From a virus, in the IMG/VR virus record IMGVR_UViG_3300018481_000054, positions 1-32,341 of that record: 32,341 nt of DNA. The stretch is one strand, 5' to 3'. The position numbers and the translations under genes are program-made. Positions within the stretch are counted from its first letter, which is position 1; the number at the start of each line of letters is the position of its first letter. Positions 14,244-27,462 of the stretch are shown here, piece after piece. The notes under the pieces were generated by a model. The model was given only the letters and a program-made list of their open reading frames with translations, made no database searches and was not told the DNA's origin.

Positions 14244-14599
14244 TGCCTGGTCGCTACGATCTCAATCTGTATCGGGGTGACTCCTACACCTGGCGATTCA
14301 TCCTGTGGGATGACGATGCCCAGACCGTTCCCACCGACTTGACTGGGGCAACAGTCAAGGCTGAAATCCGGGAGAAGTCAGCCGGCACTCACGTGGTGAT
14401 ACTGACGCCGATAATCACACAGCCCAACATCATCGACATCTCGATGACCCCGGCGATGTATGTCGACTGCCCAGTCAAGGGAGTGTGGGACTTCCAGATC
14501 ACCTACCCTGATGGCAAGGTGCATTCCCCCATCTATGGTGACGTGGTGGTGACTGGGGACGTTACAGATTCGGTGGTCATGCCGGTAGCGCGCCGATGA
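14243..14599 (+). CDS. BppU-like N-terminal adaptor, baseplate/fibre protein
   Basis: A 118-residue protein. The ATG at 14243 overlaps the peptidase stop (TGATG), so an in-frame upstream start is not needed. The sequence has the two-sheet pattern of BppU-type adaptor domains: [20 protein letters not shown], then [14 protein letters not shown], then a strand pair ending [20 protein letters not shown]. In related phages such domains anchor receptor-binding proteins to the tail tip. It overlaps the collagen-like gene by four bases and probably forms its base. Confidence 0.55.
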
Positions 14600-16947
14600 C
14601 TACAGTCGTCGTTGAGCCGGGCGAGGGCGAGCCGGTTGTCGTAGTTGACCATGACCCTGTCCAGGTAATCAACATTCAGTACGACCAGGGTGTCGAGGTC
14701 GTCGCGGTGCAGATGGGTGACCTTGGTCCTAAGGTGATCGATGTCACAACAGAGCAGGACATCGAGGTCATCGCGGTGTTCACGGGACAGCAGGGAGCGA
14801 CAGGGCCGCAGGGTCCACAGGGGGAAACAGGCCCGCCAGGGCCAACCGGAGCTGACTCCACAGTCCCAGGCCCGACTGGTCCACCGGGGGCGACCGGCCC
14901 ATCGGGGCCAATCGGCCCTGAGGGAGCACCTGGAGCTGCGTCCACAGTTCCAGGCCCTCAGGGTCCGCAAGGTACGATCGGCCCAACAGGAGCCGCTGGC
15001 CCGCAGGGAGTACCCGGTGCTGACTCCACCGTTCCTGGGCCAGTAGGTCCAACAGGTGCCACAGGGTCGCAAGGTCCTGCTGGCGAGGATGGGGCACCCG
15101 GACCTCCAGGTGCTGACTCTACGGTTCCAGGCCCAGTGGGACCGCAGGGTATCGAGGGGCCGACTGGCCCACAGGGAGACACGGGGCCAACAGGTGCAAC
15201 AGGTTCGCAAGGTCTCACGGGTGCGACGGGTGCGACGGGTCCCGAGGGACCACAGGGTATTCAAGGAACTCCAGGAGCGACGGGGCCAGCCGGTGCGGAC
15301 TCCACAGTCCCCGGCCCGACAGGTCCACAAGGTGCGGCAGGTCCCGAAGGACCACAGGGAATTCAGGGCACCCCGGGAGCGACGGGTGCGACAGGCCCAG
15401 CAGGAGCTGACTCAATTGTCCCCGGTCCAGCGGGACCGCAGGGTGCGACAGGAGCGACAGGAGCTGCAGGGCCACAGGGGATTCAGGGCACGCCTGGAGC
15501 GACTGGCCCGACAGGTCCGGCAGGCGCTGACTCCACAGTTCCTGGCCCGACTGGCCCGCAGGGTATTCAAGGTAATCCTGGTGCGACGGGTGCAGCAGGG
15601 CCGAAGGGTGATACTGGTGCTACGGGTGCGGCCTCTACGGTTCCTGGCCCAGCAGGTCCAGCAGGTGCTCAGGGAGTCAAGGGCGATACAGGACTCACAG
15701 GGGCGACCGGGCCAGCAGGACCAACAGGGGCGACAGGGGCAGCTTCCACAGTCCCAGGGCCGACTGGCCCTCAGGGTGTCAAGGGTGACACAGGCGCGAC
15801 AGGTGCAACAGGGTCGCAAGGTGTACAGGGACCGAAGGGCGACACTGGAGCTACTGGTACAGCAGGTCCAACAGGAGCCACTGGCAGCCAGGGTCCACAG
15901 GGGATCCCAGGCACTACGGGTGCTCAGGGGCCTCAAGGCCCAGCAGGAACGACAGGGGCGCAGGGCATCCAGGGAGTCAAGGGCGACCCCGGTACCCGGA
16001 ACCGCCTGATCAACGGCAACTTCTCGATCATCCAGCGCAGCGGAACGGATGTAACGGTCAGCGGACAGTTCTGTCACGATAGGTGGTACTTCAATTTCAC
16101 CGGGACTGGTGGGACCAGGGTGTACGGGAACAGAACCAACGACGCTCAGTCGCTACCCGAGGGGGCGAAGCAGTTCGCGGGTATCGGGCAGGCAGGCATC
16201 ACAGACCCCACGACGAGCACGACCCTGGGGCAGAAGATTGAGGGTGCTCGGAGTCTGTCGGGCAAGCAGGTCACAGTGTCGTTCTGGGCGCGATGCGATG
16301 TGCTCCCAACGAAGATCGGGGTGCAGTTGGTGCGGAACTTCGGCACCGGGGGCACCACTAGCCCGACCGAGTTCTATGATATCGGGATCGTCACTCTGGG
16401 CGCTGGTGGGGGGCAAGGCCCGTTCCAACGGTACTCCGTAACGGGGGCGCTTCCTGTCTGGGCTGGGCAGAGTGAGGGGACAAACAAAGACAGTCGGATC
16501 ACACTGTTGCTCTACACGTCATGTGGGGCGAACGCTACCTCGGTTGGTGGGATGGGAGTCATCGGTATTCAGAACCGGAACATCCACATCTGGGGCGTCC
16601 AGGTGGAGGCGGGTTCGGTCGCCACTGAGTTTGAGTTCCGCCTGCCCAGCGAGGAATTGGCCGCCTGCCGCAGATACTACCAGTACTACCAACTTCTTGC
16701 TGGTGAGATAGATTCCGCTTCGGGCGGCAACTACGTGTACTTGAACCCCCCAGACGTGGCTACCTTGCGAACAAAGGCTTATACGGCGTCCATATCGGGC
16801 ATCAACCAGGTGAACACTGGTGGCAGTGTCGCAGTCAACCCTGGTGTGTACGTAGAGGCGGAGATGATTTACGTCGTTTTGAACCCGGTGGGGACCCCCG
16901 GCGCATGGTGCCGAGTGTTCGACACTATACTGAACGCCGAACTCTAG
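14596..16947 (+). CDS. Collagen-like tail fibre with C-terminal adhesin domain
   Basis: A 783-residue fibre. Residues 1-64 are a beta-rich attachment region. About 67-467 are Gly-X-Y triplets rich in GATGPQG, GPAG and KGDTG. The triplet run is broken nine times by S-T/I-V-P at residues 88, 116, 144, 175, 236, 273, 313, 347 and 384. From 468 on there is a beta domain shared with the protein at 11570-12688. The collagen part should form a rigid trimeric rod presenting the adhesin. Repetitive DNA here (about 14790-15990) invites length change by recombination. Confidence 0.85.
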
Positions 16948-16955
16948 GAGGAAGC

Positions 16956-17030
16956 ATGACCTTCCGTGACGTGATCCTCATCCTGCTCGTCATCGCAGTG
17001 GTGTTCCTGCTAGTCCTTGCTTTTGACTAG
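16956..17030 (+). CDS. 24-residue single-span membrane peptide
   Basis: MTFRDVILILLVIAVVFLLV then LAFD: almost entirely one transmembrane helix with a short charged start. The ATG is preceded by CTAGGAGGAAGC, nearly identical to the strong site before the gene at 12697, which argues that it is really translated. It closes the plus-strand run. Its last 21 bases overlap the 3' end of the convergent primase gene. Possible roles are a lysis accessory peptide or an exclusion peptide; none is proven. Confidence 0.6.
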   Translation: MTFRDVILILLVIAVVFLLVLAFD

Positions 17031-19034
17031 ACCATCCAGGGTGTCGTGCCCCTTCAGTCGCCACTCGGTGATGGAGGGGAACCCGTCCGTACGCCGGTGC
17101 TGAACCCCGAGTCGCTTCCGCGCACTGTGCACCGCCCCCTTCTTGATCCCCATCTCGAGCGCGTGCTCCATCACCAATGAGCTGGCCACCCAGCCGCCCT
17201 TCCCGGGGTCGCCCTGCTCTTGCAGGAACCTGCTGAGGAAGTCCACCGCGTCGTTGGCGTCCATGAGCGCTTCGCCATCGGTGTTGCTAGCCTGCATGGC
17301 CTCGCGCATGGTGCCATTGAAGTCGGCCCCCCACTTAACCTTCGCCGTGGGGAGCTTGTTCCCCTCGCTATCCAGCACGGTGGCCGCTGTGATGGTGAAC
17401 TCGTGACGTGGGAGAGTATCGCTCGGGCCGAGATTGTTCTTCACTGTGCCGAAGATCCGGTGCGTGTGATCCAGGGGGTGGTGGATCACCGCATGCACCG
17501 ACCTCGCCACCGCAGTAAACGCCTTGCTCGCCATGACTGAGTTGAGGATGTCGTCCCCGCCTGACTTGTTGAAGTGCATGATGCCGAGGGCAGCAGCGTC
17601 GGTGGCCCCCAGCATCTTGGTCATAGGCTCGAGCGCCCTGCGTACCTCACCATCACGGTGGCTGTCCAGGCTGGCGGTCAAGCGGCTGATGAGAGGGTCG
17701 AAGAAGATGAAGGACACATCCTCTTGTCGTATCAGCGCCTCGGTCTTGTTGACATCACGGGGCAGCATCAGCTCCTCGATGTGGGTGTCGCCCTCCATGT
17801 CAACGCTGACAGCTTCCACATGCAGGACCAGGTCGAGGTTGGCATTGTTCGCCATCAGCCGGGGCACCACGACGTGCTCCCAGGAGTCCTCGGTAGCGAT
17901 GATGATGACCGACTTCGGGGTGCCGTAGTCGGCTCCCAGCAGGGTGCCACGAGTGATGGCTGCTGAGGCCCAATAGCCGATACTTGACTTGCCTGTTCCC
18001 TCCTTACCAGCGAGGATGCCTAGTGTTCCCTTGGCTAGTCTACCTTCCCACAGCCAGGTGGCTGCGCTCGGTTGGATAGTGCTCGCTCTGATCACCTTCA
18101 ATCCACTTGACTCGGGGGCTTTGACCTTTGGCTTCTCAGCCTTCGGCCCTATCAGCCCGTCTGTCCACGACCCCCCCGTCAATTCCCCTATGGATAGGGG
18201 TCTATTGGTGGGCAGGTCCATCGAGGAGGAGAACACGTAGACCTCCCCCTCGCCGGTGTACCCGATGGTCCCGCTGACACCCTCGCGTTTCCCCTCCCTG
18301 GTGAAGAGCACGTAGGGTTCGTCACCTCCGCCGGTGTCCAGCATCACATGGTGGACGTGGTACTGCTCTACCATCACATCGATAGCGTCTACAGTGAGCA
18401 GTGGGAGGTTGACCCGGTCACTCTCCTTCAGCGCTCGGCGGATCCCGCTAGCTCGGCCGGCGACCCCGTCCACCACCGACTGGAGCATGTCCACGAACTT
18501 CGCCGGCAGGACCTCGGGTGGATCCCAGGGGTCGCGGTCATCCCATGACCCCCACGGGGTGACGACTCCCGGGGCGACCACCCACCCCGAGTCTGCCCGG
18601 ACGTCGATAAGGTTCGCCCACTGGAGCGGCACTCTGTTGCCGAACATCTTCCCCGTTGGCTTGCGGAGGTAGCGGTGTTCCCCTCCACTGGCGGTGTCCA
18701 CACACCAGCCGGGGGGCAGACCGATGGAGTCAGCGAAGCCCACCCCGTCGAACCCGTGCCTGTCACAGTCGAAGACGATGTACCCCGCCGACCCGGGGAC
18801 CAGCCCCACGCCGAGCACTTCACCATCTCTGTTGTTGATGGCGCGGAACCAGCTCTCGATCTGCTCGGGGTCGGTGGAGCCATCCAGGTGGCCGCGCCCC
18901 CCATTCAGGGGGCGCTTGTTCGTGAGCCCTTTCCTGTCATCCCAAGAGATCCCAACGGGGAAGACCTTGAAGCCTCGAGAGGCCCAGAGCAGGGCGAGGT
19001 TGCGCGCGGTTTCTAGCTCCAGCGCGGTAGCCAC
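17010..19034 (-). CDS. Primase-polymerase / RepA-type helicase fusion
   Basis: A 674-residue replication protein with two domains. Residues about 1-190 are an AEP-type Prim-Pol. The metal-binding pair is D89/D91 in IVFDCDRHG, H120 lies in SGGEHRYLR, and D144 in LIDVRADSGWVVAPG. Residues about 325-540 are a RecA-fold ATPase of the RepA/AAA_25 type, with Walker A GKEGTGKS (343-350), TED (381-383) and Walker B FIFFD (442-446). A C-terminal helical region may be a winged helix. It should prime and unwind phage DNA. The GTG start has a weak ribosome-binding site but follows a small ORF stop by one base. There is no phage DNA polymerase in the window. Confidence 0.87.
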   Translation of the reverse strand: MATALELETARNLALLWASRGFKVFPVGISWDDRKGLTNKRPLNGGRGHLDGSTDPEQIESWFRAINNRDGEVLGVGLVPGSAGYIVFDCDRHGFDGVGFADSIGLPPGWCVDTASGGEHRYLRKPTGKMFGNRVPLQWANLIDVRADSGWVVAPGVVTPWGSWDDRDPWDPPEVLPAKFVDMLQSVVDGVAGRASGIRRALKESDRVNLPLLTVDAIDVMVEQYHVHHVMLDTGGGDEPYVLFTREGKREGVSGTIGYTGEGEVYVFSSSMDLPTNRPLSIGELTGGSWTDGLIGPKAEKPKVKAPESSGLKVIRASTIQPSAATWLWEGRLAKGTLGILAGKEGTGKSSIGYWASAAITRGTLLGADYGTPKSVIIIATEDSWEHVVVPRLMANNANLDLVLHVEAVSVDMEGDTHIEELMLPRDVNKTEALIRQEDVSFIFFDPLISRLTASLDSHRDGEVRRALEPMTKMLGATDAAALGIMHFNKSGGDDILNSVMASKAFTAVARSVHAVIHHPLDHTHRIFGTVKNNLGPSDTLPRHEFTITAATVLDSEGNKLPTAKVKWGADFNGTMREAMQASNTDGEALMDANDAVDFLSRFLQEQGDPGKGGWVASSLVMEHALEMGIKKGAVHSARKRLGVQHRRTDGFPSITEWRLKGHDTLDGLVKSKD

Positions 19035-21409: not shown

Positions 21410-21768
21410 GTAGTCTCGCACCCTTCATCGTGTTGGATGTGGCTGATGGAGAGGAAGGAGTCGTGGAAGCTCCCAATGGGACTGTACCAGTTGATGGCCT
21501 CAGTCATATGCGACTGCCACATGCATGGAGGGAGCAACTGGTCGTTGTAGGCGAACAGGATGCTGTAGCCATCCCTCTGCGCGGCCTGGGCGTCACGGAG
21601 GAGGAAGACTGGAACCGTCCCCGCGTTGCCCCCCCAGTTCACCACGTAGAGCCTGCGGCGCTGCGGGGTGGAGTGGTAGATGGTCCACTCAGCCCCACGG
21701 TCATGCCCGTACGCCTTCACCCGCATCGTCTCGCTGTCCCAGGTGACTGTGGTGAGGAACTTGCTCAT
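21406..21768 (-). CDS. Unknown protein downstream of the dCMP hydroxymethylase-like gene
   Basis: A 120-residue protein whose ATG overlaps the ThyA-like stop (ATGA). The first half looks like a beta-sheet domain (KFLTTVTWDSETMRVKAYGH, then RGAEWTIYHSTPQRRRLYVV). The second half is helix and loop with several aromatics (LLRDAQAAQRDGYSILFAYN; MTEAINWYSPIGSFHD) and late His/Cys residues. No family recognised. Its position makes it a candidate accessory protein of the nucleotide module. Confidence 0.6.
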   Translation of the reverse strand: MSKFLTTVTWDSETMRVKAYGHDRGAEWTIYHSTPQRRRLYVVNWGGNAGTVPVFLLRDAQAAQRDGYSILFAYNDQLLPPCMWQSHMTEAINWYSPIGSFHDSFLSISHIQHDEGCETT

Positions 21769-22586
21769 AGTCCCACGCTCACAGCGGCTGCAAGGCTCTG
21801 CTCGTACTCGGTGGGGTCGTCCACTGGCCTGCCGGCGAGGATGGCTCGGGCTCGCCGGCTGATCTCTGCGATGCCACCCCCCACTGCTCCCCAGCGGGGG
21901 CGGTAGATGAACTCGTGGGACTCGGGCTGCGGCACGGACCTCAGCTCCCTCGCCTTGTCGATGTCGTTGAGATAGAGATGGAGGCTGCCGACGGTGTGGC
22001 AGTACTCGCCAGGCTCGACATCCAGGGCGTCTGCCATCGCACACTGCAACGACGTGAACTGGAAGAGGTCGTAGGGCAGCCCCAGCCAGACGTCGTTGCT
22101 CCTCATGCTGACCCGCATCCCGAGCCGTGGCCCTTGCCAGAGGAACTGGATGGTGAGGGTGCAGGGCACGTCAGCCACGAACCTCTCGAGGTCGTTCGGC
22201 CCGTGGTAGATGCTGACCACAGCCTGCCTGGTTCCGTGGTCCTTCACCAGCAGGGAGTGGGCGCGGGCGAGCTGACCATAGACCCGCTGCCCGTATGCCC
22301 CGTGGAAGATGCCCTCGTCGGCGTACTGTGCCATCGACTTGGAGCCACGCATCACCGTGTCAGGTGCGGCGAGCTGCCCCACGAGCTGGAGTGCCTCCAC
22401 CGCCCCGATGAACTGGCGGGCCTCGCGGTCAGGGAGGTAGACCGGCAGGTGGGGGTGGATGATGTGGGTCGTGTAGTTCTGCACTTCCTTGGTGGCCATG
22501 CCTCGGGCGTTGACCTCAGTTCCGAGCATCGCTGTTTGGATCGCCCAGTAGCAGGCTTCTTGTGGGGTCAGCACGTTCATCTCCAT
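21765..22586 (-). CDS. ThyA-fold pyrimidine C5 enzyme, likely dCMP hydroxymethylase
   Basis: A 273-residue member of the thymidylate synthase superfamily, which adds a one-carbon unit from methylene-tetrahydrofolate to C5 of a pyrimidine nucleotide. The active-site Cys is in DVPCTLTIQFLW. Then come MRSNDVWLGLPYDLF and GSLHLYLND. Thymidylate synthases have PCH, QRSCD, GLPFN and GDTHLY here. The Asn of GLPFN reads the uracil base, and T4 dCMP hydroxymethylase has Asp (D179) there, with CT-x-T, MRSNDV and GSLH as I recall. The Asp in GLPYD therefore points to dCMP as substrate. Overlapping kinase, dUTPase/dCTPase and deaminase genes fit a modified-cytosine pathway. A dCMP methylase is the alternative product type. 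Confidence 0.75.
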   Translation of the reverse strand: MEMNVLTPQEACYWAIQTAMLGTEVNARGMATKEVQNYTTHIIHPHLPVYLPDREARQFIGAVEALQLVGQLAAPDTVMRGSKSMAQYADEGIFHGAYGQRVYGQLARAHSLLVKDHGTRQAVVSIYHGPNDLERFVADVPCTLTIQFLWQGPRLGMRVSMRSNDVWLGLPYDLFQFTSLQCAMADALDVEPGEYCHTVGSLHLYLNDIDKARELRSVPQPESHEFIYRPRWGAVGGGIAEISRRARAILAGRPVDDPTEYEQSLAAAVSVGL

Positions 22587-23062
22587 CAGGTGGTTCCCTT
22601 TCTGATCTGCTTGAGCAGGTTACTGGTGACAACGGTCACCGGCATGTAGAGGATGTCGCCACGGATGGCGAGCTTGAGGAACTCGCGCTGCCCCATCATG
22701 GCGTGGTAGGCGTCGGTGTTGGACTCGCCCCGCCTCTGGATGGTGTCGTTGATCTCCTGGTAGGGGCGAACGATGATGTCCACTCGTGCCCCTTGGTTGG
22801 CGTACCAGAGGCAGACCAGCTCCCAGTTTGACTGGTTCAGGGTGGGCCGGTGGAACCCGAGCTTGGACCACACCTTGGACCCGATGAAGGAGCGGTCCAT
22901 GACCACGTTGGCATACTTAGCGACCTTGACTACGTACTCTTCGAGAGGGTGCTTCCCGTTAGGCACCCCGTAGTGGAACAGGGTAGACCCATCCCGCTGG
23001 AATATCCAGTGAGCATGTGTCGACTTGCCGACGGCATCAGCTCCCTCGAGGATGCTGATCAT
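22586..23062 (-). CDS. Deoxynucleoside monophosphate kinase (thymidylate kinase-like)
   Basis: A 158-residue P-loop kinase from the ATG at 23062, which overlaps the previous stop (ATGA). MISILEGADAVGKSTHAHWI is the phosphate-binding loop, in the form usual for thymidylate kinases. VVMDRSFIGSKVW provides the Asp-Arg motif near the substrate, and RPYQEINDTIQRRGE may be the lid. It should phosphorylate a deoxynucleotide. Next to the dCMP hydroxymethylase-like gene, the natural substrate may be the 5-modified dCMP, parallel to T4 gene 1 kinase. dTMP is the default alternative. Confidence 0.75.
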   Translation of the reverse strand: MISILEGADAVGKSTHAHWIFQRDGSTLFHYGVPNGKHPLEEYVVKVAKYANVVMDRSFIGSKVWSKLGFHRPTLNQSNWELVCLWYANQGARVDIIVRPYQEINDTIQRRGESNTDAYHAMMGQREFLKLAIRGDILYMPVTVVTSNLLKQIRKGTT

Positions 23063-23403
23063 CTGTGGTGGTTCCTCCTTGCCTTGTTGATAGCGGTCTT
23101 CCTGGCGTAGGCTACTGCCCACTCCTCGTCGGTAACGTCGACTGTGATAGCCAGCGCCCCCACGAAGTGTACGACGTCTACGAGTTCCTCGATGTAGGCG
23201 TCACGGTCGAAGTGGGTGGGGTCCCCTATGTCCCACCACTTCCACCCCCTGACCTCTTGCAGGACCTCAGTGGCCTCCACGATCAGCCCGAGCACCATGT
23301 TCCGCACCCATGCTATCTTCTCCTCAGGTGGCAGCACGGCAGGGTCGCCACCGAAGTAGTTGATCTGCAGGTCCCGCGTGCTCGCCAGCCAGTCGGGGGT
23401 CAT
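23059..23403 (-). CDS. All-alpha NTP pyrophosphatase (dUTPase/dCTPase type)
   Basis: A 114-residue helical protein of the dimeric dUTPase/MazG-like superfamily, which hydrolyses (d)NTP to (d)NMP and pyrophosphate. The metal-binding helices are visible: LIVEATEVLQEVRGWKWW carries the E-x3-E set, and YIEELVDVVHFVGAL the E-x2-D set, with a late KTAINKAR. T4 gp56 dCTPase-dUTPase has a similar ELVD-x2-HF motif as I recall. In this operon it could both make dUMP/dCMP and remove unmodified dCTP. The ATG overlaps the deaminase stop. Confidence 0.75.
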   Translation of the reverse strand: MTPDWLASTRDLQINYFGGDPAVLPPEEKIAWVRNMVLGLIVEATEVLQEVRGWKWWDIGDPTHFDRDAYIEELVDVVHFVGALAITVDVTDEEWAVAYARKTAINKARRNHHR

Positions 23404-23831
23404 CGTGCCGACCCAATGATGTGCCAGAGGTCAAGCCCGAGCTTCTCCGCGAGCTCGATGGTGGGGGCGTCAGGGTAGCGCTCCCAGTCGGGGGCGTGGA
23501 GCCAGTAGACCTTCTCGATCCCATACGAGGCTGCCAGCAGGACGCAGGGTGAGCAGGGGAAGTGGGTGACAGCCAGAATACCCCCCCGCGCGAGCGTTGG
23601 GGTGGTGTAGCGAAGGGCGTTGGCCTCGCCGTGGATCACGTACGGCCTGCGACCCTGCCTGTCGTTCCAGTCGATGCTGGCCCCTGCGATGGTCCCGTTG
23701 TAACCGACACCGAGGACGATTCCGTCCTTGTCGAGGACGCAAGCCCCGACCTTGCAGTGGGGGTCTTCGCTCCGCGCTGCCGAGGCCAGTGCGATGTTCA
23801 TCGCATGGTCGGCCCAGGTGGGCCTACTCAT
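23400..23831 (-). CDS. dCMP deaminase
   Basis: A 143-residue zinc deaminase converting dCMP to dUMP. The zinc ligands and catalytic Glu are clear: HGEANALRY (HxE) and FPCSPCVLLA (PCxxC). The N-terminus ADHAMNIALASAARSEDPHC and VGACVLDKDGIVLGVGYNGT are standard for the family. The ATG at 23831 overlaps the end of the upstream gene by eight bases. It feeds the dUMP/dTMP pool, while the neighbouring ThyA-like enzyme seems to draw on the same dCMP, the same pairing that T4 has. Confidence 0.88.
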   Translation of the reverse strand: MSRPTWADHAMNIALASAARSEDPHCKVGACVLDKDGIVLGVGYNGTIAGASIDWNDRQGRRPYVIHGEANALRYTTPTLARGGILAVTHFPCSPCVLLAASYGIEKVYWLHAPDWERYPDAPTIELAEKLGLDLWHIIGSAR

Positions 23832-24045
23832 CTTCGGCCATGTCAGCGTTGTGGAGGTCCAGGATGTGCGACATGATGTTGGGTGCCTGCATGAGCGCCT
23901 GCATGGCGGTCGTGGCCTGCATGTCGGTGTCTTCGGTGGGCAGGAGGGAGAGCTGGACGGACACCCCCGCCTCAGCAACAGCGAACCTGATGTGGCGGCC
24001 GAACTCGTCAGTCCAGACGGTGGCCTCAACTTCAACGTAGTGCAT
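23824..24045 (-). CDS. Small acidic protein, first gene of the nucleotide operon
   Basis: A 73-residue protein with GAGGAGCCACCAC before its ATG. The first half is strand-like (HYVEVEATVWTDEFGRHIRF), and the second half is a Met-rich helix (AMQALMQAPNIMSHILDLHN) with an acidic end. No function recognised. It is the first gene after the promoter at 24099-24127 and overlaps the deaminase gene. Confidence 0.6.
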   Translation of the reverse strand: MHYVEVEATVWTDEFGRHIRFAVAEAGVSVQLSLLPTEDTDMQATTAMQALMQAPNIMSHILDLHNADMAEDE

Positions 24046-24098
24046 GTGGTGGCTCCTCAGTTATCTCGTTCGTCTCATCTCCGGTGTCGTGCACCCTA

Positions 24099-24127
24099 AG
24101 CATAGCGCACCCCCCCTAAGGAAGCAA
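24099..24127 (-). promoter_or_regulatory. Promoter of the nucleotide/replication operon
   Basis: On the minus strand, TTGCTT (24127-24122) and TATGCT (24104-24099) are separated by exactly 17 bases, about 53 bases before the ATG at 24045. The same -35 hexamer and spacing recur at 25041-25018 and 32132-32104. A palindrome is centred on the -35 (see the next entry). Confidence 0.6.
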
Positions 24128-24141
24128 TACCTTAGAGGGGG
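24111..24141. repeat. Palindrome centred on the -35 box: operator or hairpin
   Basis: CTAAGG (24116-24121) and CCTTAG (24130-24135) are perfect inverted arms flanking the -35. They extend to C5/G5 arms with one bulged base. It could be a repressor site that covers the -35, or the terminator of the gene ending at 24158, since it lies seventeen bases past that stop. No T run follows on the minus strand, which favours an operator. Confidence 0.45.
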
Positions 24142-24157
24142 TGATGTGCTACAGATG

Positions 24158-24610
24158 TCAGCCCGCGTCGCGGAGCTCCTCCACCTGCTCGAAGAGGTCC
24201 TCGATGGACAGCGTGCCTGCCTCGAGGGCGTCGAGCGTGGCGTTGGCGACCTTGTTGGAGTCCAGCCCCAGCTCGCCCAGCTCCTTCCAGGTGCACCCGA
24301 GCGCGCGGCGCAGGACGGAGCGCGGGTTCTTCTGGTAGGAGGTCGCGCCCTCGGCACCCCAGGTCTCGCGGTAGAAGCGGCCACCCCGCTCGCCCACGTC
24401 GGAGAAGGTGAGGGTGGGCTCGGCCTCGGTCTCGGGGTCGTTGGGGGCGTCGGTGGCGTCGGGGTTGACACCCGCGATCACCTTCCCGTTGCCAGCGGCA
24501 GCGTACTGAGCAGTGGGGGTCGCCTCGAAGAAGGCGAGAGCCTGGTCCTCGCGAGCGTGCTGGATGACGGTGCCATCGGTAAGGAAAACGGAGTACTTAC
24601 GACTAGCCAT
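24158..24610 (-). CDS. Protein with C-terminal NPR-LEAGT domain, shared with 31614-32018
   Basis: A 150-residue protein from the ATG at 24610, with GAGGAACCACC upstream. The N-terminus (RKYSVFLTDGTVIQHARED) looks like a small beta domain, followed by an acidic linker. Residues about 103-143 (NPRSVLRRALGCTWKELGEL, then GLDSNKVANATLDALEAGTL) match a segment of the protein at 31614-32018 (NPRTQLRDRLGITWAALNVL, then ELDAAAPAKAALAALEAGTT). This helical module has no function known to me. It has its own promoter at 24680-24651. Confidence 0.65.
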   Translation of the reverse strand: MASRKYSVFLTDGTVIQHAREDQALAFFEATPTAQYAAAGNGKVIAGVNPDATDAPNDPETEAEPTLTFSDVGERGGRFYRETWGAEGATSYQKNPRSVLRRALGCTWKELGELGLDSNKVANATLDALEAGTLSIEDLFEQVEELRDAG

Positions 24611-24650
24611 AGCGGGTGGTTCCTCACTTCCTGTTGTAGTTGGAAAGGCC

Positions 24651-24680
24651 ATCATACCATGTCGGGCTGCCGCCACGCAA
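24651..24680 (-). promoter_or_regulatory. Promoter upstream of 24158-24610
   Basis: On the minus strand, TTGCGT (24680-24675), an 18-base spacer and TATGAT (24656-24651) lie about 40 bases before the ATG at 24610. The -35 has the TTGCNT form found at the other minus-strand promoters. Confidence 0.55.
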
Positions 24681-24693
24681 ATGTTCCAGAGCC

Positions 24694-25011
24694 TCATCGC
24701 AGGGCTACTTCGTGCCCGTCGGCGACGACGGCGAGGTGGACGTTGTACGCCATCGATCGGGACACCCCCGCCAGGTTCCCAGCATCGATGTAGTGCATAC
24801 CATCGAGGATGGCGGCGCGGATGACGACTATGGTGGCGTCCCTGGTGGAGTCGTAGAGCTCCTGCGCAGTATGGAACCTGTCGCCGGCTCCGCGCAGGGC
24901 ATCAGCGTGGTGGAACAACAGCTCAGGGTCGAGCTGCTTCCGCGGTCTGCCCAGCGACTGCTGCCTAGTTGTGCGTTTGGGGATCACTAGTGGTTTCTTC
25001 TCGTTTGCCAT
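24694..25011 (-). CDS. Putative helix-turn-helix regulator, leaderless
   Basis: A 105-residue protein with a basic N-terminus (NEKKPLVIPKRTTRQQSLGR). Residues about 65-95 contain ILDGMHYIDAGNLAGVSRS and AYNVHLAV, which reads like a helix-turn-helix (the AGNLAGVSRSMAYNVHL stretch). It stands alone next to the divergent control region and may regulate it. The ATG lies six bases after TATAAT, so its mRNA probably has no leader. A non-regulatory DNA-binding role is possible. Confidence 0.55.
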   Translation of the reverse strand: MANEKKPLVIPKRTTRQQSLGRPRKQLDPELLFHHADALRGAGDRFHTAQELYDSTRDATIVVIRAAILDGMHYIDAGNLAGVSRSMAYNVHLAVVADGHEVALR

Positions 25012-25017
25012 GGGACA

Positions 25018-25046
25018 ATTATACTCCTCTTGCTGCCGGGAAGCAA
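25018..25046 (-). promoter_or_regulatory. Promoter of the leaderless regulator gene
   Basis: On the minus strand, TTGCTT (25046-25041), a 17-base spacer and a perfect TATAAT (25023-25018). The ATG begins seven bases later, at 25011, where transcription would be expected to start. Confidence 0.7.
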
Positions 25047-25127
25047 AGCCTAGTGGTGCGGGCACACTTCAAGATCCGCTATAGCAGGTCACAATTCCTA
25101 CCAGTCGTGTTAAAGGACCCCCAGACT

Positions 25128-25198
25128 AAACAACTGCACGACTAGTAGAGGACTCCGAATCAATCCCTAGACCAGTTGTACAGTCGTTGTAGTTGTTT
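25128..25198. repeat. Imperfect inverted repeat, candidate operator pair
   Basis: AAACAACTGCACGACT (25128-25143) is mirrored by 25182-25198, whose reverse complement is AAACAACTACAACGACT; they differ by one substitution and one insertion. A third partial copy of the AGTCGTG core is at 25103-25109. The right arm overlaps a possible -35. The neighbouring helix-turn-helix protein is an obvious candidate to bind here. Confidence 0.45.
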
Positions 25199-25215
25199 GT
25201 TGTGTTTAATAAGAT
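25187..25215 (+). promoter_or_regulatory. Possible second plus-strand promoter
   Basis: TTGTAG (25187-25192), 17 bases, TAAGAT (25210-25215). The -35 is weaker than in the other sites and lies inside an inverted-repeat arm, so it may be an operator-controlled promoter. Confidence 0.35.
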
Positions 25216-25281
25216 CTTACGAAAGCAGAACAAGGGGACCATCACAACCACCATCGGGCAGGCCCTCCTAGTCTACAACCA

Positions 25282-25310
25282 TTGCATCCACGCTGTCAGG
25301 CTACTATAAT
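25282..25310 (+). promoter_or_regulatory. Promoter of the 25354-27902 operon
   Basis: TTGCAT (25282-25287), a 17-base spacer and perfect TATAAT (25305-25310). Transcription would start near 25317, giving a leader of about 37 bases that contains the AGAGGAATCCACCAC ribosome-binding stretch. Confidence 0.7.
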
Positions 25311-25353
25311 AAGGGGGTGGGCGACCGCCCGCACTACGAGAGGAATCCACCAC

Positions 25354-25602
25354 ATGCCCGACCTTACAGACCCATCAGGGCGGAAGATCACTCGCCAGCC
25401 CCGCGTCTACAGCTCCAACCCAGGGCGGCAGAAGTCCGCGCAGATCTCACGCTCCCGCAAGGCTCAAGCCATACTGAAGGACATGGCCTACTACGGGGAG
25501 GCGATCCCGGAGCAGAGCTGGCAGGCCATGTACCGCGACCTCCTAGCCACCCCCCTCTACAACCCTGCCGGCGAGATCTACCTCATGAAGGAGGGCGAGT
25601 GA
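25354..25602 (+). CDS. Small basic protein, first gene of the rightward operon
   Basis: An 82-residue protein starting at the ATG at 25354, after AGAGGAATCCACCAC. The first half is rich in Arg, Lys and Ser (SGRKITRQPRVYSSNPGRQK) and could contact nucleic acid. The second half is helical (AQAILKDMAYYGEAIPEQSW). No family recognised. It overlaps the next gene by four bases (GTGA). Confidence 0.6.
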   Translation: MPDLTDPSGRKITRQPRVYSSNPGRQKSAQISRSRKAQAILKDMAYYGEAIPEQSWQAMYRDLLATPLYNPAGEIYLMKEGE

Positions 25603-25820
25603 CCCCGACCTGCCCGCGCTGCGGGGAGCCCCTGCCCAACCGTCGCATCCCCGCCCTCTCCCGCTGGGACAATCGCACGTACATCTGCAACAACTGCGGA
25701 ATGGCTGAGGCCCTGCTCCAGTACGAGGCCATGGAGAAGGGCAAGAACCCCTACGACAACATCCACCCAACGGGAGGCTCCATCGTGTGGTCCATCTTCA
25801 AGGGGCGGGTGCGGAAGTGA
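25599..25820 (+). CDS. Small zinc-ribbon protein
   Basis: A 73-residue GTG-start protein coupled to the gene before it. CPRCGEPLPNRR and YICNNCGMAE form a CxxC-CxxC zinc ribbon about 25 residues apart. The remainder contains GKNPYDNIHPTGGSIVW. Such ribbons often act in phage-host protein or nucleic-acid contacts; the target is unknown. Confidence 0.65.
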   Translation: MTPTCPRCGEPLPNRRIPALSRWDNRTYICNNCGMAEALLQYEAMEKGKNPYDNIHPTGGSIVWSIFKGRVRK

Positions 25821-26284
25821 TGCCCATCATCACCTTCGACCTGGACAGCACGCTCGCCGACACCCGCGCCCGTCGCTACCTCATCAATCGCGAGGGTCCC
25901 ACCGACTGGCGGGCGTACTCCATGGCATGCTCGTCTGACGAGCCCATCGCCCACACGGTCGCGCTCTGGCACGCGCTCGCGCCCACCTACAACCTCGCCA
26001 TAGTCACCGCCCGCAACATCCTGGCCAGGGGGCTCACCGAGGAGTGGCTGCTCAAGCACCACATCCGCCCCGACCTCCTACTCATGGCCAGCGATGAGCA
26101 AGCCACCATGGATCACGGAGAGTACAAGAAGGTCAGGGTCCTCGAGGCAGGGCGGCGACTGTCGGGGCACGTCACCCTCCACATCGATGACTGGCCGCCA
26201 GTCGCTGATGCGCTTGCCGAAATCGGGGTCCCCTGCCTCATGGTAACCCCCCCGTCTAGTGAAGGGCCGGGCAACTATGTCTGA
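25820..26284 (+). CDS. HAD-family phosphatase
   Basis: A 154-residue hydrolase. Motif I is FDLDSTLADT (nucleophile D7, acid D9), motif II is AIVTAR, and a late HIDDWPP is the acidic metal-binding motif. A Lys in EYKKVRV is a plausible motif III. Family members of this size remove phosphate from nucleotides or DNA 3' ends (as in the T4 polynucleotide kinase phosphatase domain). Given its neighbours, a nucleotide or DNA-end phosphatase is likely. It is coupled by TGATG. Confidence 0.75.
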   Translation: MPIITFDLDSTLADTRARRYLINREGPTDWRAYSMACSSDEPIAHTVALWHALAPTYNLAIVTARNILARGLTEEWLLKHHIRPDLLLMASDEQATMDHGEYKKVRVLEAGRRLSGHVTLHIDDWPPVADALAEIGVPCLMVTPPSSEGPGNYV

Positions 26285-26429
26285 CCACGACCCGCTGTGC
26301 GAGGTGGATGTCCACGGGAACTTCTGTCAGTGCTGCCTGATCGCCAAGGTCCGCGCCGACGAGCGGGAGCGGATGCACGACGTCTACCACATGGAAGAGC
26401 GCGTCCCTGATCGCCGGGAGCAGCAATGA
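26277..26429 (+). CDS. 50-residue Cys/His protein
   Basis: Overlaps the phosphatase gene by eight bases and the next gene by four. CEVDVHGNFCQCC near the N-terminus gives four Cys and one His within about 15 residues, likely a compact zinc site. The rest is a charged helix (KVRADERERMHDVYHMEERV). No known function. Confidence 0.55.
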   Translation: MSDHDPLCEVDVHGNFCQCCLIAKVRADERERMHDVYHMEERVPDRREQQ

Positions 26430-26686
26430 GTAGGGCGGAGGCCGAGCAGGCCGAGAGGGAAGGGCGGTACGTGGGTGCCCTCGCCCTCTGGTACCAGGTC
26501 CTTTTCGCTGGGCACGACGACATGGAGGATGTCATGGATCACATCGACGCTACCCGCGCATGGTCGCGCGCCCCCGCCGAGCCCCCCGCCCACGGGTGCG
26601 GGAAGGAATACTGCCAGACCCTCGGCTGCCCGCACGCCAAGTTCAAGGTGGTCAAGCGAGACAGGTCCTTCCCATGGAGAGGCTGA
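26426..26686 (+). CDS. Helical protein with C-terminal Cys/His cluster
   Basis: An 86-residue protein (ATGA overlap). The N-terminal helix-turn-helix-like repeat AEREGRYVGALALWYQVLFA resembles a single TPR-type hairpin. The C-terminus has HGCGKEYCQTLGCPHAKF, a probable zinc site. Its end overlaps the glycosyltransferase start by thirteen bases. No function recognised. Confidence 0.6.
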   Translation: MSRAEAEQAEREGRYVGALALWYQVLFAGHDDMEDVMDHIDATRAWSRAPAEPPAHGCGKEYCQTLGCPHAKFKVVKRDRSFPWRG

Positions 26687-27462
26687 GCCTAGCGGTCCCC
26701 TCGTCCATGCGATGGCACCGTACGAGGACTCTGGAGCAACTCGAGGAAGTGTCGCTCCGCATGGACATTTCGTACTACGTCCCCATCGAGCAGTCGGCCC
26801 GCTACCGAATGGCCATGCCCGCGTGGGTCAAGGTCGTCCCTCGAGGCGGGCGTGCCCACCAGGCTCGCACGGCCATCATGGAGGACCACCGAGGGGCCGA
26901 CGTCATGATGATGGATGACGACATCCCCTGGTTCGTGGGCTGCCTGAAGGTGTTCCCCGACAAGGCCAGTGAGAAGGCACCCAAGACCCCGAAGCTCAAC
27001 GCCATGGAAGTGGGGAACATGGGGTTCCGGGCGCTGGATATCACAGGGCTGAAGGCATGGGGGGTCTACCCCGTTCCCTACAGCGGCACTGCCCTCCAGC
27101 CTCGCATCGGGGTCGGGGAGGTCTTCCTCTGCGGTGGCGCGTTCGGGCTCCGTGTCCCCAGCGAGGGCATGGGGTTCAGCGTCGACCTCCACGTCAAGGA
27201 GGACTACGAGATCACGGCCCGCCTCCTCGAGCGTGACAAGGCGGTGGTGCGGCTCGACTGCGTCTGTCCCTACACCGTCGTTGGCGAGGGTGATGGTGGG
27301 ATGGCGGAGCACCGAACCAGTGCTGCCGAGGAGCTGAGCGTCGCCTACCTCACGTCGCAGTGGCCGCAGTGGTTCACGAGGCGAGCCGACCGTGCTGGGC
27401 TGCCGCAGGTCAAGTTCCACAACAAGGTGGACTGGTACGATGTGGGGGAAGTGATGTCGTGA
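26674..27462 (+). CDS. GT-A glycosyltransferase, resembling DNA-base (TAGT-type) transferases
   Basis: A 262-residue protein. The N-terminal strand-helix pattern ISYYVPIEQSARYRMAM (32-48) leads to VMMMDDDIPWF (78-87), whose DDD should bind metal and nucleotide sugar. KEDYEI (175-180) supplies the Glu-Asp pair usual near the acceptor, and FLCGGAFGLRV (151-161) fits the donor pocket. This resembles the transferases described with TET/JBP enzymes in phages that glycosylate modified bases. With a dCMP hydroxymethylase-like gene in the same phage, 5-hydroxymethylcytosine in DNA is a plausible acceptor. Protein glycosylation is an alternative. Confidence 0.65.
   Translation: MERLSLAVPSSMRWHRTRTLEQLEEVSLRMDISYYVPIEQSARYRMAMPAWVKVVPRGGRAHQARTAIMEDHRGADVMMMDDDIPWFVGCLKVFPDKASEKAPKTPKLNAMEVGNMGFRALDITGLKAWGVYPVPYSGTALQPRIGVGEVFLCGGAFGLRVPSEGMGFSVDLHVKEDYEITARLLERDKAVVRLDCVCPYTVVGEGDGGMAEHRTSAAEELSVAYLTSQWPQWFTRRADRAGLPQVKFHNKVDWYDVGEVMS

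Follow-up and report, generated by a model that had tools for sequence, protein, structure and literature searches.

In the phage T4 gp42 pathway, 5-hydroxymethylcytosine (hmC) enters DNA as a nucleotide. Residues D179 and D145 of gp42, an enzyme of the thymidylate synthase (TS) fold, serve cytosine recognition and water activation, respectively (PMC6400193), and the same pathway contains a dCMP deaminase, the dCTPase/dUTPase gp56, gp1 and alpha- and beta-glucosyltransferases. MilA, the CMP 5-hydroxymethylase of Streptomyces rimofaciens, prefers CMP, and changing its K133/A176 to R/S moves that preference to dCMP (PMC6400193). DNA of the Stenotrophomonas siphophage AXL3 withstands 35 of 37 restriction enzymes, the two that cut being A/T-only (PMC7504290). 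A further enzyme family, TAGT (PF20691; phrog_842), includes a T2/T6 beta-glucosyl-HMC-alpha-glucosyltransferase that puts a second glucose on hmC, acting on glucosyl-hmC in DNA (PMC13216743), and a TET-linked enzyme of Arthrobacter phage Altadena. Cytosine modification as a defense against restriction is a known principle.

Here we describe an uncultured bacterial virus represented by a linear IMG/VR record (IMGVR_UViG_3300018481_000054; 32,341 bp, about 62% G+C), referred to throughout as the window, in which four minus-strand genes form a compact cassette and a glycosyltransferase is encoded nearby on the plus strand. The reading that we prefer for the cassette is a predicted dCMP hydroxymethylase pathway of T4/AXL3 type, in a combination of genes that is slightly new. 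As a whole, we consider it moderately probable that the cassette makes 5-hydroxymethyl-dCTP and that the glycosyltransferase probably adds sugar to hmC in DNA.

Residues and fold of the TS-fold enzyme

Used singly as queries against viral contigs, the TS-fold enzyme and the glycosyltransferase of the window gave no match, and alignments were therefore used instead. The TS-fold enzyme was aligned with E. coli TS (a public reference sequence, entered by hand), T4 gp42 and 88 relatives. The scan pattern used to collect relatives from IMG/VR left out position 177 (E. coli TS numbering), yet did select this enzyme clade. Positions 143, 147 and 177 are Asp/Thr/Asp in the window enzyme, in gp42 and in 88/88 aligned relatives, as opposed to Leu/His/Asn in E. 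coli TS and six canonical phage TSs, and Asp/Asn/Asn in the SPO1-like Goe26 and LuckyBarnes enzymes. In metagenomes, modified cytosine is associated most strongly with positions 177 and 147 (PMC8670742). In window numbering, the water-activating Asp139 (T4 D145) lies three residues ahead of the catalytic Cys142 (T4 C148, E. coli TS C146), which was identified in both the alignment and the fold model; Thr143 takes the place of E. coli TS His147, and Asp173 (T4 D179) is the cytosine-specifying residue at position 177. Trp80 and Trp83 of TS are replaced by Met and Tyr, and the protein ends in AAAVSVGL without the APVAI-like C-terminal tail of TS. As the Asp/Thr/Asp residues are combined with loss of this tail, we conclude that the window enzyme is not a TS; a canonical TS was ruled out on the same grounds.

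A structure model of the enzyme was obtained with a predicted local distance difference test (pLDDT) score of 86.9. The top seven Foldseek matches were all MilA (best template modelling (TM) score of 0.80), whereas the TSs among the matches listed had TM scores of 0.63 or less. MilA is about 22% identical to the window enzyme and shares its CTL, ND and D motifs. Window Arg120 and Ser163 (R126 and S167 in E. coli TS numbering) correspond in the PDB alignment to MilA K133 and A176, with MilA numbering deduced from a constant offset of four. The window thus carries the Arg/Ser pair that moves MilA to dCMP, which makes a ribonucleotide (CMP) hydroxymethylase unlikely. In a tree, the enzyme grouped with D177 relatives in a five-row set, all D177, with 97/89 support. 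These comparisons suggest that dCMP, rather than dUMP or CMP, is very probably the substrate, and identification of the protein as a dCMP hydroxymethylase is well supported by its residues and modelled fold. Related Asp/Thr/Asp TS-fold enzymes are also encoded in actinomycete genomes (Paractinoplanes and Virgisporangium; L187, L188 and L190).

The four-gene cassette and its relatives

Features of the window in and near the predicted pathway (-, minus strand; +, plus strand)
Feature	Length	Position	Strand	Supporting match or motif
TS-fold dCMP hydroxymethylase-type enzyme	273 aa	21765..22586	-	PF00303 E=3e-19; phrog_5131 E=1e-36
P-loop (d)NMP kinase	158 aa	22586..23062	-	GADAVGKST; SPBc2 YorR profile match
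All-alpha dUTPase_2/dCTPase-type pyrophosphatase	114 aa	23059..23403	-	PF08761 E=5e-14
dCMP deaminase	143 aa	23400..23831	-	dCMP_cyt_deam_1 (PF00383) E=3.5e-16; phrog_174 E=3e-28
HAD phosphatase, polynucleotide-kinase phosphatase-like		25820..26284	+	phrog_415 E=1e-27
DDD-motif glycosyltransferase, phrog_842/TAGT-like	262 aa	26674..27462	+	phrog_842 E=4e-9

The deaminase and dUTPase_2 genes overlap by 4 nt (ATGA), as do the dUTPase_2 and kinase genes (ATGA), and the kinase and TS-fold genes overlap by 1 nt (TGATG). As these overlaps are short and third-codon-position G+C is 0.81-0.85 in all genes, the cassette is not a product of chance; the five genes inside 21765-27462 are real. The deaminase has an ATG start (N-terminus MSRPTW) and the zinc motifs HGEAN and PCSPC. 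The pyrophosphatase is homologous to T4 gp56 (hhalign probability of 97%, E=9e-11, 43 columns) and has the conserved ExxE and ExxD motifs of all-alpha NTP-pyrophosphatases; it is predicted to hydrolyze dCTP. The kinase starts with the ATG at 23062, preceded by AAGGAGG. No Pfam family was found for this protein and nothing linked it to T4 gp1; among PDB profiles, it matched SPBc2 prophage YorR best (E=4e-5).

Four adjacent, overlapping genes of these types had been proposed in an initial annotation of the DNA, and the Pfam, phrog and PDB profile matches bear this out. The same annotation equated the set with that of T4, which holds for the deaminase, the gp56-type enzyme and the hydroxymethylase but was not seen for the kinase, nor was an alpha- or beta-glucosyltransferase found in the window. 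Its suggestion that the modification is specific for cytosine and enters at the nucleotide level now has strong support from D177, T147, D143, R126 and S167, the MilA-like fold and the gp56 homology. The window further differs from T4 in that its cassette is compact and lies in a small, siphovirus-like genome without a recognized DNA polymerase.

The four-gene order recurs in seven IMG/VR loci (L021-L027), which represent about three lineages once near-copies are removed. The last enzyme in these loci is 43-50% identical to the window enzyme, and kinase homologues occupy the same place. AXL3, which has a similar genome type, encodes a D177 enzyme plus a deaminase, a kinase and an NTP-pyrophosphatase, and the residue signature of its enzyme is that of the window. 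However, AXL3 differs in its gene order, encodes a DNA polymerase I of its own as well as a second TS, shows no avoidance of G/C palindromes and has no annotated glycosyltransferase. AXL3 is the best outside support for our reading of the cassette.

Which genes are present, their order, their homology and the residues of their active sites are observed; from these we predict the following pathway, including each activity, which C5 product is formed, what accepts the sugar and how far cytosine is replaced. The dUTPase/dCTPase-type enzyme would convert dCTP (and dUTP) to the monophosphate, moving the pool away from dCTP. The TS-fold enzyme would then add a hydroxymethyl group to C5 of dCMP from methylene-tetrahydrofolate and water, and the kinase would begin rephosphorylation of hm-dCMP, while the deaminase would convert surplus dCMP to dUMP to feed dTTP synthesis. 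A polymerase, probably that of the host, would insert hmC into phage DNA, and the TAGT-like glycosyltransferase would probably glycosylate hmC in DNA, with a nucleotide-sugar of the host as donor. Among the part of the window's frames that was searched, none was recognized as a family A or B DNA polymerase, and the host polymerase may therefore have to use the modified nucleotide. A primase-polymerase/AAA helicase (17010-19034) is the sole replication enzyme of such kind recognized in the window.

The glycosyltransferase and its neighborhood

The glycosyltransferase start was corrected from 26560 or 26761 to 26674 because MERLSLAVPSSMRW matches the first strand of related enzymes in the alignment. 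The DDD motif is at residues 81-83, and DDD, ED, GG and RT are invariant columns among the relatives. The DDD, KED and GG..RT motifs and a similar length are shared with the T2/T6 and Altadena TAGT enzymes, although the window lacks the adjacent TET gene or first glucosyltransferase of those systems. A tblastn match to Altadena gp63 (E=4e-7) and the phrog_842 match show relationship only, not TAGT membership. An AlphaFold model (pLDDT of 49) was too poor for use. From its family, a DNA glycosylation step is plausible, and on balance we favor DNA as the predicted target of the enzyme.

In the nearest named relatives, Altadena and Bumble, the glycosyltransferase directly follows a TET-like gene, and the gene order TET, glycosyltransferase, deacetylase is found in both phages and in L016. 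A TET route to hmC was also sought in the window and not found: Pfam (PF12851) and phmmer searches detected no TET/JBP oxygenase in this linear record, from which genes may be missing. The initial annotation likewise noticed no TET-like oxygenase, and the DDD-motif glycosyltransferase that it placed in the next operon was confirmed with a corrected start. No hydroxymethylase neighbors of the L016-L020 glycosyltransferases were found. As the presence of GT2 glycosyltransferases alone means little, a canonical-TS control set was added. GT2 enzymes over the cut-off were present in 14/30 D177 records vs 1/35 canonical-TS records (Fisher P=4e-5), a comparison that is indicative only, since the two sets come from different hosts and habitats, consist partly of fragments, include related records and contain genes that are not adjacent.

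Brevibacterium phage LuckyBarnes (L015:6004-9168) encodes an Asp/Asn/Asn dUMP-hydroxymethylase-type enzyme together with two TAGT glycosyltransferases that exceed the Pfam cut-off. As 5-hydroxymethyluracil would be the likely acceptor in this phage, their database label, beta-glucosyl-HMC-alpha-glucosyltransferase, may be incorrect.

The plus-strand operon is separate from the cassette, with the HAD phosphatase gene upstream of the glycosyltransferase gene and RusA downstream. The window terminase gave weak matches only, to Arthrobacter, Gordonia and Mycobacterium phages, and no near DNA relative of the window was found in the phage collection. In the terminase large subunit (43-1917), an HNH-like cysteine/histidine domain is fused in frame at the N-terminus, and this fusion is also present in L027 (L027:13577-15622). 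A long collagen-like Gly-X-Y repeat protein (14596-16947) is probably a tail fiber.

Restriction pressure and alternative explanations

Several observations weigh against the proposed pathway, and they bear on different parts of it. If cytosine were mostly shielded, C-containing restriction sites should feel no pressure. The avoidance seen in the window does not fit this expectation, as all-G/C 6-bp palindromes occur 55 times vs 125.7 expected (0.44), a ratio lower than any obtained in 2,000 draws of non-palindromic all-G/C hexamers, the minimum of which was 0.80. GGGCCC is found 0 times vs 18 expected, CCGCGG 2 vs 15 and GGCGCC 0 vs 9.5. Ratios of 0.84-0.97 were obtained for AXL3, PW916, L027, L029 and L100, five D177 genomes or loci with a G+C content close to that of the window, and the Altadena ratio is 0.97. 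The initial annotation held that the modification would protect the genome from host restriction. This claim is unsupported by the sequence, as the window avoids G/C palindromes and the GC-rich D177 genomes and loci checked do not. We conclude that the avoidance argues against long-standing, complete protection in this phage, and near-complete, protective replacement of cytosine appears doubtful.

One explanation for this result would be that the pathway exists but that DNA is modified partly, or that the cassette was recently acquired, leaving the genome still open to restriction. The avoidance is present in each quarter of the window (0.32-0.69), and phages in which such genes were not noted vary, with Bxb1 at 0.77, above the window, and Wawa, an Arthrobacter phage, near it at 0.33. 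However, the cassette is intact and its order is conserved in other lineages, and palindrome counts from one genome are indirect evidence that could have other causes. We regard this explanation as unlikely.

The product of the TS-fold enzyme is also subject to doubt. The published hydroxymethylase signature includes T4 Ser94, two residues before the active-site Tyr, where Ser/Thr is expected; the window has Gly at this position, as do all 88 relatives, including AXL3. As this residue is replaced, a hydroxymethyl product is likely but not certain. The enzyme could instead act on dCMP to form another C5 product, either 5-methyl-dCMP or, like Mosigvirus phages, 5-hydroxy-dCMP; synthesis of the latter has been reported for an RB69-type homologue (PMC13390438), and an N to D change that turns a TS into a dCMP methylase is cited in PMC8670742. 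The Asp at position 143, which replaces TS Leu and corresponds to the water-activating residue of gp42, argues against such products, as do the substitutions of both TS Trp residues, the absent tail and the fact that the best fold match, MilA, is a hydroxymethylase. We therefore consider a different C5 product distinctly unlikely.

A rival explanation of the last step accepts nucleotide-level cytosine modification but assigns the glycosyltransferase to protein, the cell envelope or another phage's DNA, leaving bare hmC in the genome. The location of the gene on the opposite strand in a separate operon is consistent with this possibility, and searches of 35 other records from the enzyme clade gave no TAGT or phrog_842 match. 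In addition, relatives L017-L020 adjoin terminase genes, with no TET-like gene on the stretch examined, and the Pfam TAGT score of the window protein is 18.8 bits, under the curated cut-off of 27.5 bits. On the other hand, the TET-linked position of the nearest named relatives and the activity of the T2/T6 family member on DNA point to a DNA substrate, and we judge bare hmC to be rather unlikely. Far less credible is an ordinary dTTP supply consisting of dCMP deaminase, dUTPase, TS and thymidylate kinase. The gene set fits by name and databases label the last gene thymidylate synthase; nevertheless, the Asp177, Thr147 and Asp143 residues, the lost tail and the grouping with D177 relatives oppose this explanation, and AXL3 has a separate TS gene (TS-complementing protein) beside its D177 enzyme. 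We consider this explanation highly improbable.

The hydroxymethylase pathway with probable glycosylation of hmC thus remains our preferred reading. More tentatively, the window may represent a hybrid in which MilA-like, nucleotide-level formation of hmC would be followed by direct glycosylation by a TAGT-type enzyme whose nearest named relative acts behind a TET-like oxygenase. Neither an alpha- nor a beta-glucosyltransferase would take part, and the genome would still be subject to restriction. The four-gene order together with the Asp/Thr/Asp signature flags cytosine-modifying phages in metagenomes that list the gene as thymidylate synthase, and the palindrome count provides a simple sequence test of whether a predicted DNA modification shields a phage. 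If the glycosyltransferase does use nucleotide-made hmC, TAGT enzymes would be interchangeable between TET-made and nucleotide-made hmC, and this enzyme would be a new hmC-labelling tool.

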